Assembly (NCBI RefSeq): GCF_003610195.1
Contig: NZ_RAPO01000002.1
Span: 1,302,001 to 1,366,000, forward strand
Direction: 5' to 3'
DNA from: Halopiger aswanensis
GTDB taxonomy: Archaea > Halobacteriota > Halobacteria > Halobacteriales > Natrialbaceae
Length of the DNA stretch: 64,000 nt
A program made the translations under genes and the position numbers. The notes beneath the pieces are model-generated. The model was not told where the DNA came from, searched no databases, and saw only the letters and a program-made list of their open reading frames with translations. The first letter of the stretch is position 1, and every line of letters starts with the position of its first letter. Positions 55,420 to 60,797 of the stretch are shown piece after piece.

Positions 55420-55733
55420 GACGTGGTGTGAACGAGGCGGCCCACCCCTGTGAGTGCGTCGATACAGCCGATCGAGGCCAGTAATGCTAATTAGGTAGCC
55501 CGTGAGACATTATCCGAAACTGATGGCAGTGAGACGGGATGGGGCAGACGGTCCGAATAGCGAGGAAACGCCGCCGCGAGCGTCCGGTCTCGCCGCCGAG
55601 TACGTACGACTCGACCGCCGATGACCGGAACGCACGCGAACCCACACGTGCGGAGCCAGCGACGGTCCGTTACGGCGGCCACGGGGGCTACTATCACGAC
55701 CGCGGCGGCCACGACGACTGCGGAGGTGCACCG
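55420..55733. other. Intergenic stretch before the histidine kinase
   Basis: About 314 bases. Two AT-rich boxes (55486-55495 and 55508-55515) could drive the kinase gene. An in-frame ATG at 55539 lies about 28 bases after the second box, but the added 65 residues are Arg/His-rich and low in coding character. A GGAGGTG (55722-55728) precedes the ATG at 55734, favouring the later start. Confidence 0.4.
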
Positions 55734-57773
55734 ATGAGCGTTCCGTGCGAGGAACCAACCGCCGTCGTCGGCGTCGGTGAGTCGGTACGGTCGGCTCGCG
55801 CCCGGGAAGCGCTGCTCGAGGGAATCGCAACGGACCTCATCGTCGTCGATACGCCTGCGGACGCGCTCGAGTGCCTCGAGGACCGCGACGACGTCGGCTG
55901 TGTCGTCACCGCCCGCTCCCTGTCGGGGACAGACGCGACGGGCCTCGAGTGCTGCCGCGCGGTCCGCGAGTACAGCGTGGACCTGCCGGTCGTGTTCTAC
56001 GTCGCAGAGGACGCGCCCGATCCCGACGCCGTTCGGCGGGCGCTCAACGCCGGCGCGGCCGGCTATTATACGGGAGCAGATCCGCTCGCGGAACTCCGGG
56101 ACGCCGTCGACGACGCGATCGAGACCTACGACCGGCGTCGGGTGGCCGCCGCCGAGAGCGACGCGTTCACCACCGTGCTCGAGGATCTCGGCGTGAATAT
56201 CTACGTCAAGGACGACCAGGCTCGGTACCTCCGCGCGGCGAACGTCCCCGACAGCGCGGACGCGGCCGACTCGCTCGGAAAGACGGACCTCGACGTTTAC
56301 GGCGATAACGACCCCGAAACCGCCCGCGCGGCTTACGAGGACGACCTGCGAGTGATCGAAACTGGCGAACCGATCTACGAGAAGGACGAACGGTACGGCA
56401 CCGACAGGACCGCCCACGTGGTGCGAACGACGAAGGTCCCGTGGACCGACGACGACGGGACGACGAAGGGGCTCGTCGGCATCACGTTCGACATCACCGC
56501 ACTCAAACATCAAGCAACGGAACTCGAGGCGCTTCGCGACCGGTTCGACCGGTTCGCGTCGAACGTTCGCCACGAACTCAAGAACCCGCTGCAGGTCGCG
56601 AGCGGCCACCTCGAACTCGGCCGCAAAACCGGCGACGGGGAGTCTCTCGCACACGCGGCGACGGCGCTCGAGCGGATCGAGGAGGTTCTGAACGACCTGG
56701 AATCCATCGCGACGGACGAGGCCGGCGACCCGGCCGAGCGGACCCGCACGCTCGAGGACCTCGTCGAGGACGTCTGGACCGTCCTTCGAACCGACGCGGC
56801 GACGCTGGAAAACGAGTTCCCGCCGTCGGCTCGAACGGCGACCGGAACGGAGACGCTGCGCCCGGTCTTCGAGAACCTGTTCAAGAACGCGCTGACCCAC
56901 GGCGAACCCGACGTCACCGTTCGCATCGGGCCGCTCGAGGACGGGTTCTACGTCGAGGATACGGGCCCCGGCATCCCGGAATCCGAACGCGAGGCCGTCC
57001 TCGAGGCCGGCTACACCACCGCGTCGGAGGGAGACGGGATGGGCCTCACGCTCGTCGCGGACGTCTGCAACCAGCGGGGCTGGACCCTCGAGATCGGCCG
57101 CAGTCCGGAAGGCGGCGCCCGGTTCGAGATCACGAACTGTCCGCTGATCCGGGAGCCGACAGCTGACGACCGTGAAGACGTCCGCAAGGATCCAGGGCTC
57201 GGGCTCGATGCGGAAACTGCCGTCGGCACCTTGGAGGGAGACTGTGGCGCCGAGTACGATCCGGCGCGGAACCGGTGGGCCGTCACCGCCGACGGCGCCA
57301 ACATCTGGCGCCACTGGAACGACTTTTATTTCGTCCACACGGTCGTCGAGGGGCCGGTTAGCATCCGCGCTCGCGTCGTCGACATCGAGGGCGTCGATCC
57401 GTTCAGCAAGGCGGGCGTGATGGTCAGGGACGAGCTCACGGAGGACGCATCGTACGGCTACGTCGGCGCCACGCCGGGCTTTGGCACGGAGATGCTCTGG
57501 CGTACCCGCCGCGGGGAGGAGGGGATCAGCCAGCAACTCAGGGAAGCCGAGCGCTCGGAGTGGTTCCGCGTCGATCTGCTCGAGGGAACCGCGACGTGTT
57601 TCGTCTCGCAGGACGGGCAGCGGTGGGTGCCGATCGATCAGCGCCCGATCGACCGGACGGGGCCGGTCTACGCCGGGCTGGCCGTCTGCAGCGTCGTCGC
57701 GGGTCATCCGTGTACGGCGCAGTTCGAGGACGTTTCGGTCGTCGACCTCGCAGTCGAGTCGGCGGACGACTGA
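55734..57773 (+). CDS. Soluble histidine kinase: pseudo-receiver, PAS, kinase, C-terminal lectin-like domain
   Basis: 679 residues. Receiver-like domain (about 9-115) has Ala60 where the phosphorylated Asp should be (GCVVTARSLSG). PAS domain is about 145-255. The kinase core has the H box RHELKNPL (H280), N box ENLFKNALTHG (380-390), G1 VEDTGPGIPE and G2 GMGLTL. A C-terminal beta-sandwich (about 505-670: WRHWNDFYFVHTVVEGPVSI, FSKAGVMVRDELTED, WFRVDLLEGTATCFVSQDG) resembles DUF1349/LamG-like domains. No membrane helix. The adjacent gene is a FilR1-type regulator. A Shine-Dalgarno fixes the start. Confidence 0.9.
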   Translation: MSVPCEEPTAVVGVGESVRSARAREALLEGIATDLIVVDTPADALECLEDRDDVGCVVTARSLSGTDATGLECCRAVREYSVDLPVVFYVAEDAPDPDAVRRALNAGAAGYYTGADPLAELRDAVDDAIETYDRRRVAAAESDAFTTVLEDLGVNIYVKDDQARYLRAANVPDSADAADSLGKTDLDVYGDNDPETARAAYEDDLRVIETGEPIYEKDERYGTDRTAHVVRTTKVPWTDDDGTTKGLVGITFDITALKHQATELEALRDRFDRFASNVRHELKNPLQVASGHLELGRKTGDGESLAHAATALERIEEVLNDLESIATDEAGDPAERTRTLEDLVEDVWTVLRTDAATLENEFPPSARTATGTETLRPVFENLFKNALTHGEPDVTVRIGPLEDGFYVEDTGPGIPESEREAVLEAGYTTASEGDGMGLTLVADVCNQRGWTLEIGRSPEGGARFEITNCPLIREPTADDREDVRKDPGLGLDAETAVGTLEGDCGAEYDPARNRWAVTADGANIWRHWNDFYFVHTVVEGPVSIRARVVDIEGVDPFSKAGVMVRDELTEDASYGYVGATPGFGTEMLWRTRRGEEGISQQLREAERSEWFRVDLLEGTATCFVSQDGQRWVPIDQRPIDRTGPVYAGLAVCSVVAGHPCTAQFEDVSVVDLAVESADD

Positions 57774-58255
57774 GGAGGGGAGTGTGAATGTTCGAGTGGC
57801 CGCTTGCTGCGCTGGACGGCCGGCAACCAGTAGCGCGCCGAAAACGGAGTCCCCCGAGCGTCAGCGGACCAATTCGAATGGACGATCTCGCTGGCCGTGT
57901 CGCTCTCGACGAAGCTCGAGGGTGGCGTTCGAGCCGGGCGGTCTCGAACGCCGGTCGCTGTCAGAGGCACGCGACAACCACCGACATGCGGTCGGTGACC
58001 GCTGGATCGTGGTGTCGACGAGTGGCGCCTACCGCGGCGCAAGCCAGAGTTTGCCGAAGACGGCCCTTACCTTATCGAATGAACGGGCGTTCAACGGCTG
58101 TATCTCGACCGGGAATCGAACACGACGCGAACGTGCCTGCGTTCCGGACCGGCAGCGACCGGGGCGGATATCGCGGAGTGGCAGCTGTCGCAGATTGGTT
58201 ACTTCCCTCACATAACCAGAAGCAATAATACCCTGTGTATACCAGACCGTACCCA
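57774..58255. other. Stretch without a gene (482 bases)
   Basis: No frame on either strand has convincing coding character or a good start. The only visible signals are a palindrome (58080-58093) and AT-rich sequence before the FilR1-type regulator start (58256). It could be a long regulatory region or the remains of a lost gene. Confidence 0.4.
58080..58093. promoter_or_regulatory. Perfect palindrome TGAACG-GG-CGTTCA
   Basis: Six-base arms TGAACG and CGTTCA with a two-base spacer, preceded by an AT-richer CTTACCTTATCG. It resembles a TetR-type operator but no TetR gene is nearby. Confidence 0.4.
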
Positions 58256-59077
58256 ATGGGTTACGACTGGGGGAAACAGCTGTTCTCGTCCCCGCACCGA
58301 CTCGAGGTGCTTCGAGAACTCCGGGCGGCCCCCGCGGACACGCAGACACTCACCGACGCGCTTTCGATCTCGCGGGTGACCGTCCAGCGCCACCTGAACC
58401 GGTGTTGCGAGCTCGGGTGGATTCACAAAGTCGACGGGCGCTACGAGCTTACCCCGCTCGGCGACCGCGTCTGTGAAGCGACGGCGACGTATCTCGATCG
58501 ACTCGACGTCCTCGAGTCGCACGCGGACGTGATCGACGGGCTCGCGGCCATCGACGACGGGTTCGATCCGCTCGTGCTGACCGAGGCGACCGTTTCGGTC
58601 GCCGAATCGAACAACCCACACGAGCCGATCAGCCACTACCGACGCGCGATGAGCGAGGCGACGACCGACGAAATTCGCGGGATTCTGCCCGTCTTCAGCG
58701 AACTGCTCATCGAAGTTCACCGCGACCTCCTCGAGGCGGGCGTCGAGACGGAACTGCTTACGCCGCAGTCGGTGCTCGAGGCGGCACCGCCGCCGGACCA
58801 GCCGGTGGCTGGGGGTCAGTTCACGCTCTACGTGCACGAGGAACCGCTCGAGTTCGGCGTGACGCTGACCGACGAGCGGGCGTTCGTCGGCCTCTACGAC
58901 GACGGCGCGTTCGTCGCGTGTATCGAGAGCGACGAGGCGGCGTTTCGCGACTGGGTCGTCGACGTCTACGAGGGACATCGCAGCCGGGCGCGTCAGGTCG
59001 GCATCGAAGCCACCGGCGCCAGGGACGGGGACGGGGACGGGAGCGCTGCTAACGGCCTCGATAGCGACAGCGGCTGA
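58256..59077 (+). CDS. FilR1-type wHTH transcriptional regulator
   Basis: 273 residues from ATG 58256 (a GTG at 58235 is possible). FSSPHRLEVLRELRAAPADTQTLTDALSISRVTVQRHLNRCCELGWIHKVDGRYELTPLGDRV is the N-terminal winged helix. The C-terminal domain (about 90-250) has the FilR1 blocks PEFSELLIEV-like PVFSELLIEVHRDLL and EPLEFGVTLTDERAFVGLYDDGAFVACIESD. It would be a ligand-responsive regulator. It lies downstream of the hybrid kinase on the same strand. Confidence 0.88.
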   Translation: MGYDWGKQLFSSPHRLEVLRELRAAPADTQTLTDALSISRVTVQRHLNRCCELGWIHKVDGRYELTPLGDRVCEATATYLDRLDVLESHADVIDGLAAIDDGFDPLVLTEATVSVAESNNPHEPISHYRRAMSEATTDEIRGILPVFSELLIEVHRDLLEAGVETELLTPQSVLEAAPPPDQPVAGGQFTLYVHEEPLEFGVTLTDERAFVGLYDDGAFVACIESDEAAFRDWVVDVYEGHRSRARQVGIEATGARDGDGDGSAANGLDSDSG

Positions 59078-59156: not shown

Positions 59157-60797
59157 TTACGCGAGTTGTTCGTAAACCGGCGGCTCTCGCGAATGTTCTT
59201 CCTCGGTGAGCCGTGCGACCGCCTCGCGGACCGTTTGCAGGCTCGCGGTCTGTTCCTGGCTTGCCGCCGCCAACGATTCTGCTGTCTCGGCGAGGCGATC
59301 CGCCGTCTCAGAGAGGTCGTCGACCTGATCGGCCGTCGCCTCAACGCTCCGGGCCTGCCGTTCGGTCGCCGCTGCAACGTCGTCGATGCCCGTAGCGGTC
59401 GTTTCTGCAGCGTCGTGGATTGCCTCGAGCGAGTCGACGGTATCTCGGATCGCATCCGCACCGGTATCGACGCGGTCGGCTGCCTGCTCGGTCGCTTCGA
59501 CCGTTGTCACTGCATCCTCGCGAATGGCCTCGACGGCGTCTTCGATGTCTGCGATGTCTGTCTTGGTCCGCTCGGCGAACGAGCGCACCTCGTTGGCGAT
59601 CACGACAAGCGTCTGTTCTTCGGCTCCGGACCGCGAGGATTCGATCTTCGCGTTCGTCGCGAGCATCGTTGTTCGGTCGGCGAGATCGTCGAGTCGCTCG
59701 AGAATCGCGTCGATCTCCTCAGTTCGTGTCGCGAGATCATCGGCTGCTGACGCCGCCCGTTCGGTCGCCGACTCGATCGCCTCAAGGTCCGACAGCGCAT
59801 CGTCGGCGGCATCGACACCGTCGGCCGCGAGCCGTTCGGTGCGGTCGCTCTCGGCACTGACGTCATCCGCTGCACTGGCAATCTCCTCGACGGCGGCGCT
59901 AATTTCGTCGAGATCCCCACCGGCATGGGTGACTGCGGTCGCTTGCTCGTCGCCGTACTGGCTGATCGCTTCCGCCTGCTCCGCGACTGCCTCGCTGGCC
60001 TCGTGGAGTTCGTCAAGGGGACGCTGTACGTCTTTGTCTACCTGCTGCTCAAGCCGGTGTCGCCGGTCGATCGACCGCTCGAGACGCTGTGCATACGAGT
60101 CGACGTAGGTCTCCACGGCGATCTGCGTATCGAGATTGATGATCCGGAGCAGCGCGAGGATATCCTGCATGCCGTCGTCGATCGCATCCCTGAGCGTCGA
60201 TTCGAACGACGCGTCAAGGGCCGGGTCGTCGGCTGCCGAGCCAGCTCCAAAGCCCAACGCGTCGGCGAGGCCTTCAAGACCACGTCCCGTCTCGTCGTCA
60301 CGGTCCGTCGCCCACTCCTCGACAGCGTCGACGACCTGCTGCTGGATTCGTTCGTTGAGTCGATCCAGCAGTAGCTCGTAGTAGACGCCGTACTGGCCGA
60401 CGTAGTGTTTCAGCGGCATATCGAGCAGTTCGTGAAGTTTGCCGATCCGAGCGCGGTTCGCGAAGTAGTCGCGGTCGTACTCACCGGTCGCTAGCGAGAC
60501 GAGATAGGCACTCTGGGTCTCTTTCAGCGCGTCGATCCCCTTCGGTGACCAATCGATAACGGCTCGCGTCTGGTCATACGTGAGCAATTTGTCGTAGAAG
60601 TCGTCGGCGATCTCGTTCTTGTTATCGCGCAACAGTGGCTCGAGGTCGGCGAGCCGCTTTGCGTCCGCCTCGTCGAAACCGATGAAATCCTTTCGCCAGG
60701 CAATCTCCGATTCGTCGAGACCGAGGTCGGCGACGAGTTCGTCGACATCGACGAACCCGTTCAGTCCGCCACGTCCGAACGTCTCGTCGGGATCCAT
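59157..60797 (-). CDS. hemAT: HemAT: globin-coupled methyl-accepting aerotaxis transducer
   Basis: 546 residues. The globin sensor (about 20-170) has the proximal His H122 in the IGKLHELLDMPLKHYVGQYG block. A linker to about 270 and the coiled-coil signalling domain follow, with the hairpin tip region RTTMLATNAKIESSRSG and VIANEVRSFAERT. No membrane helix, so it is a soluble oxygen sensor for the Che system, as in Halobacterium HemAT. No che genes are nearby. Convergent/divergent to PINA across 197 bases. Confidence 0.95.
   Translation of the reverse strand: MDPDETFGRGGLNGFVDVDELVADLGLDESEIAWRKDFIGFDEADAKRLADLEPLLRDNKNEIADDFYDKLLTYDQTRAVIDWSPKGIDALKETQSAYLVSLATGEYDRDYFANRARIGKLHELLDMPLKHYVGQYGVYYELLLDRLNERIQQQVVDAVEEWATDRDDETGRGLEGLADALGFGAGSAADDPALDASFESTLRDAIDDGMQDILALLRIINLDTQIAVETYVDSYAQRLERSIDRRHRLEQQVDKDVQRPLDELHEASEAVAEQAEAISQYGDEQATAVTHAGGDLDEISAAVEEIASAADDVSAESDRTERLAADGVDAADDALSDLEAIESATERAASAADDLATRTEEIDAILERLDDLADRTTMLATNAKIESSRSGAEEQTLVVIANEVRSFAERTKTDIADIEDAVEAIREDAVTTVEATEQAADRVDTGADAIRDTVDSLEAIHDAAETTATGIDDVAAATERQARSVEATADQVDDLSETADRLAETAESLAAASQEQTASLQTVREAVARLTEEEHSREPPVYEQLA

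Follow-up and report, generated by a model that had tools for sequence, protein, structure and literature searches.

Domain order of a haloarchaeal histidine kinase

The window, which is the whole 64,000-nucleotide stretch of Halopiger aswanensis DNA analysed here, encodes a 679-residue protein whose Pfam matches and structure models give the order pseudo-receiver, PAS_4, HisKA, HATPase_c and DUF1349-like sandwich (Table 1). An in-frame ATG occurs earlier, at 55539, but the start is placed at 55734 because orthologues begin at the equivalent position (MSV.C..PT.VVG). The highest 19-residue Kyte-Doolittle mean in the protein is 1.2; the kinase therefore has no membrane helix, in agreement with the earlier note on this DNA, which had described it as soluble. 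The entire gene is also spanned by an antisense open frame of 738 codons (55491-57707, minus strand). Comparable long antisense frames lie over kinase homologues, and such frames are most likely artefacts of high-GC codons.

Table 1. Coordinates of the kinase gene, its domains and related tandem loci
Feature	Position	Strand	Evidence
Whole gene, 679 residues	55734..57773	+	Open reading frame, ATG 55734 to TGA 57773; start backed by orthologues
Pseudo-receiver, residues 8-135	55755..56138	+	Response_reg 22.3 bits, under the 30.2 cut-off
PAS_4 domain, residues 149-258	56178..56507	+	Pfam E 9.4e-10, above cut-off
HisKA dimerisation/phosphoacceptor domain, residues 273-330	56550..56723	+	Pfam E 2.9e-9, above cut-off
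HATPase_c, residues 373-467	56850..57134	+	Pfam E 1.4e-13, above cut-off
Linker, residues 469-489, poorly conserved	57138..57200	+	23% mean pairwise identity in family
DUF1349-like (concanavalin A-like) beta sandwich, residues 490-672	57201..57749	+	Pfam, AlphaFold2, Foldseek
Tandem fused kinase pairs	L056:5958-9915, L057:7278-11235, L060:7540-11500, L066:6038-10302		One copy without phosphoacceptor His

Judged by its motifs, the protein is expected to have kinase activity, because the phosphoacceptor His280 (codon 56571-56573) is present in the H box VRHELKNPL and the N box (ENLFKNALTHG), G1 box (EDTGPGIP) and G2 box (GDGMGL) of the HATPase_c domain are all intact. Several other haloarchaeal kinases carry DAVEHGPTSPDSQAQQ / DAVEHSSTSPPSHARE insertions that duplicate the N box's own end. 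In-frame repeats of this type lie directly past the ATPase N box at L063:8115-10184, L065:6773-8842 and L162:1117-2640.

The receiver lacks every feature by which a phosphorylatable receiver is recognized (phospho-Asp, acidic pair and Lys). Ala60 (codon 55911-55913) occupies the phospho-Asp position, as the earlier note had observed in calling the domain dead, and residue counts across 40 homologues show that the acidic pair (G15/E16) and the Lys (G114) are also gone. Of the 40 fused proteins described below, 10 retain Asp60 and just nine give a Response_reg match at E 0.01; the common residues at the Lys position do not include Lys. The three orthologues of the window protein keep the Asp. 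The change to Ala60 is therefore recent, whereas the remaining receiver residues were lost earlier.

Of ten unfused relatives scanned with Pfam, three carry a canonical receiver (L152, L158 and L166; 71-77 bits). The receiver of L155 (49 bits) has Glu in place of Asp, and that of L071, whose 5' end is cut, scores 22 bits; the others have no Pfam receiver. The unfused L156 has a region resembling a degenerate receiver, without a Pfam match. Most of the closest unfused cousins that possess a receiver thus possess a sound one, and receiver decay accompanies the fused clade, though it is not confined to it. Archaeal kinases of the REC-PAS-HK type, including those with non-phosphorylatable REC domains, are a described class (Galperin et al. 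2018, PMC5847659). A census estimate holds that up to 40% of their REC domains may escape phosphorylation (PMC5847659), and a non-phosphorylatable REC in such a protein is therefore ordinary by itself. The order REC-(PAS)n-HisKA-HATPase of this REC-HisK class, in which degenerate REC domains are frequent, matches the N-terminal part of the fused kinases (PMC5847659). However, the class stops at the ATPase domain, whereas the fused clade adds a sandwich of about 190 residues and has a receiver that is degenerate clade-wide.

A DUF1349-type sandwich behind the ATPase domain

In the full protein, Pfam places DUF1349 (PF07081) at residues 512-669 with an E-value of 3.5e-5. The isolated tail matches nearly the full length of the profile (positions 21-176 of 179) at 28.4 bits and E 1.6e-6, under the gathering cut-off of 32.4 bits. 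All 40 fused tails match DUF1349, and we infer that the best of them, at E 3.4e-11, lies above the cut-off. Seven tails also match GH43_C2 weakly. An AlphaFold2 model of residues 488-679, built from a two-row alignment, is all beta with 13 strands (pLDDT 75, pTM 0.77); the full-length model, also from two rows, is of low confidence (pLDDT 44, pTM 0.30). When the tail model is compared with the PDB by Foldseek, 3o12 ranks first (E 6e-9) and is accompanied by 3mep (E 6e-8), and GH43 xylosidases, GH16-type enzymes and PRY/SPRY domains, TRIM25 included, come next. A sequence profile made from the 40 tails, which is independent of Foldseek, again ranks 3o12 best (E 0.0044), while a single-sequence PDB search gave no useful match. 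Because the Foldseek matches to 3o12 and 3mep, the 40-tail profile and the DUF1349 matches of all 40 tails agree, the tail is identified as a DUF1349-type concanavalin A-like sandwich.

The earlier note had taken the tail to be DUF1349/LamG-like and had proposed a structure prediction and an HMM search. The prediction gives a beta sandwich, and the DUF1349 part of the assignment stands on Pfam, the model and the 3o12/3mep matches, even though the HMM score of the window protein falls under the cut-off. The LamG part does not, since Pfam gives no LamG match with an E-value of 1 or less.

The best fold matches, 3o12 (yeast YJL217W/REE1) and 3mep (Erwinia ECA2234), are stand-alone proteins with no kinase attached and about 15% identity to the tail, unlike the fused kinase module. 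No sugar role for either is established in the literature examined. REE1, the nearest solved yeast relative, is named for enolase regulation and is described as cytoplasmic, so that a cytosolic DUF1349 domain has precedent. No viral relatives were found by sequence; by fold, the module matches viral proteins, most of which are unnamed or resemble tail proteins or lectins.

Outside kinases, the module was sampled in 47 frames, none of which has a kinase-core match. A twin-arginine motif lies near the N terminus in 38 of them, which bears out for haloarchaea the earlier note's remark that such modules normally belong to secreted proteins; the nine that lack the motif are mostly fragments or are cut at the end of a stretch. 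Plasmid-record annotations of such proteins read pectate lyase, DUF1349 protein or hypothetical protein. The modules with a Tat signal (pectate-lyase type and others) are about 24-40% identical to the kinase tail and share with it a framework of G521, G561, R565, W589, R590, W610, D627, G628 and W631. Their proteins sometimes have two modules and a fusion to enzyme-like parts, and the modules fall in a clade separate from that of the kinases. Residues E586, D635-Q636-R637 and W515 are specific to kinase sandwiches and missing from exported modules. Conversely, several residues that are fixed in exported modules, namely D541, T554, Q588 and Y623, are changed in kinases.

Distribution and decay of the fused kinases

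A search of 293 Halobacteriales genomes for the fusion of sandwich and kinase found a sandwich match in 49, and in 23 of these 49 it is joined to a kinase. These 23 genomes (about 1 in 13 of those searched) encode 40 fused proteins, the window's own included, in four families. Beyond the Halobacteriales, the sole match is a 349-residue non-kinase frame in G584 (393 genomes across the phylum). The nearest orthologues are 58-63% identical at full length. One is from Natrialba swarupiae, and it is the only orthologue recovered by a single-sequence scan of genome contigs. No description of a DUF1349-kinase fusion was found in the open-access papers searched.

The survey of haloarchaeal kinases that the earlier note had suggested therefore adds 39 proteins that share this order of domains. 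Together with Pfam and the tail model, these proteins establish the odd domain combination that had been noticed in the window. The arrangement is common to a whole clade of 40 and not unique to the window protein. A frameshift joining two genes near 57240, the event named as a possible refutation, is excluded by the same 39 homologues. Their identical order also rules out a fusion produced by chance, by sequencing or annotation error, or in a chimeric gene.

In the tree of kinase cores, 37 fused proteins separate from 13 unfused kinases with support of 100/99, and in the sandwich tree, 40 kinase modules separate from 18 exported-type modules with support of 100/100; neither tree is rooted, and the outgroup is small. 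Because the fused proteins form one clade in both trees, the simplest reading is that the fusion arose once. The closest unfused cousins have chains that stop shortly past the ATPase domain. Within the 40 fused proteins, mean pairwise identity is 39% for the sandwich, 37% for PAS, 26% for the receiver and 23% for the linker.

Some members of the clade have lost catalytic motifs. At L056, L057 and L060, which belong to one genus, a tandem member has Gln in place of His280 and unrecognisable G boxes, with an intact kinase 74 nt away. The upstream tandem member at L066 has Thr at this position and its intact copy lies 177 nt away, while the fused copy at L053 has Glu. Those at L059 and L062 keep the His, and their N and G2 boxes are altered. 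The sandwich is retained in all of these decayed copies, which suggests that it has a role separate from catalysis.

Clustering of open reading frames at 34 loci and the window shows conserved neighbours mainly in four Natrialbaceae loci, where M32 and M20 peptidases and a FilR1-like regulator are found. Neither a response regulator nor a gene for transporting or degrading sugars is conserved beside the kinase at these 34 loci and the window. A conserved operon or sugar locus was rejected, because synteny holds among the Natrialbaceae orthologues only. In the window, the FilR1-like protein is a winged-helix regulator (58235-59077) on the kinase's strand, 461 nt downstream, with HVO_A0261_N and FilR1_middle domains and no receiver match. 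In the four Natrialbaceae loci it keeps its place close to the kinase, as do unrelated genes. FilR1 acts as a response regulator in a two-component system of a methanogen. Farther along, a frame on the minus strand (59157-60797) resembles a globin-coupled (HemAT-type) chemotaxis transducer, by eye from its translation.

Possible roles of the sandwich

The window protein is probably a soluble orphan kinase in which a C-terminal DUF1349 sandwich, most simply gained a single time, serves as a regulatory module for a ligand or partner. An error of sequencing or annotation, or a tail without function, might be suspected from the DUF1349 score of the window protein, which is under the curated cut-off. 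Such an origin is hardly credible when the same junction recurs in 40 proteins of four families that form one clade, with a tail conserved as well as PAS.

The earlier note had proposed that a carbohydrate in the cytosol is the ligand of the sandwich, which would pass the signal to the kinase. The fold is common to GH43 C-terminal domains, GH16 enzymes and other concanavalin A-like proteins, the weak GH43_C2 matches of seven tails point the same way, and homologous modules occur in exported pectate-lyase-type proteins. Exported modules are also found in 6 of the 23 kinase genomes versus 26 of 270 others (Fisher p 0.027, uncorrected for kinship). However, an exported copy went undetected in the other 17 kinase-bearing genomes, the closest solved relatives are without an established sugar role, several of the residues fixed in exported modules (D541, T554, Q588, Y623) are altered in kinases, and the loci hold no conserved gene for sugar transport or degradation. 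A sensor of sugars or glycans thus seems unlikely, and a sugar is one possible ligand among several. Alternatively, the sandwich may not be a sensor at all and may instead recruit a target such as a response regulator, an enzyme or a partner kinase. Docking or localisation of this kind is possible but doubtful. It would suit a fold class that also holds PRY/SPRY domains, residues conserved in kinase sandwiches only, retention of the sandwich by catalytically dead copies, and a nearest yeast relative named for enolase regulation, but a ligand-binding role is equally compatible with these features.

For the preferred reading, a regulatory module for a ligand or partner, the following course can be envisaged. 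A REC-PAS_4-HisKA-HATPase kinase gained, most simply once, a C-terminal sandwich of the type that haloarchaea otherwise mostly export, and the receiver lost its phosphorylation site. The sandwich would act as an input module that binds a cytosolic ligand or partner beside the ATPase domain and, jointly with the PAS domain, controls autophosphorylation at His280. From there, a response regulator with its gene at another locus would receive the phosphoryl group. Where relatives have a dead copy beside an intact one, the dead copy may be the regulatory subunit of a mixed dimer. A more specific version is rather improbable: an exported carbohydrate-type module would have become a cytosolic C-terminal kinase sensor that replaces the phospho-receiver input, and some lineages would have built two-subunit sensors from an intact and a dead kinase, both with the sandwich.

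Sensor modules of histidine kinases usually lie before the catalytic core. In the fused clade, a lectin-type sandwich lies behind the ATPase domain, together with receiver decay and dead paralogues that keep the sandwich. The clade offers a defined case in which to ask how a C-terminal domain controls a histidine kinase and what DUF1349 domains bind.
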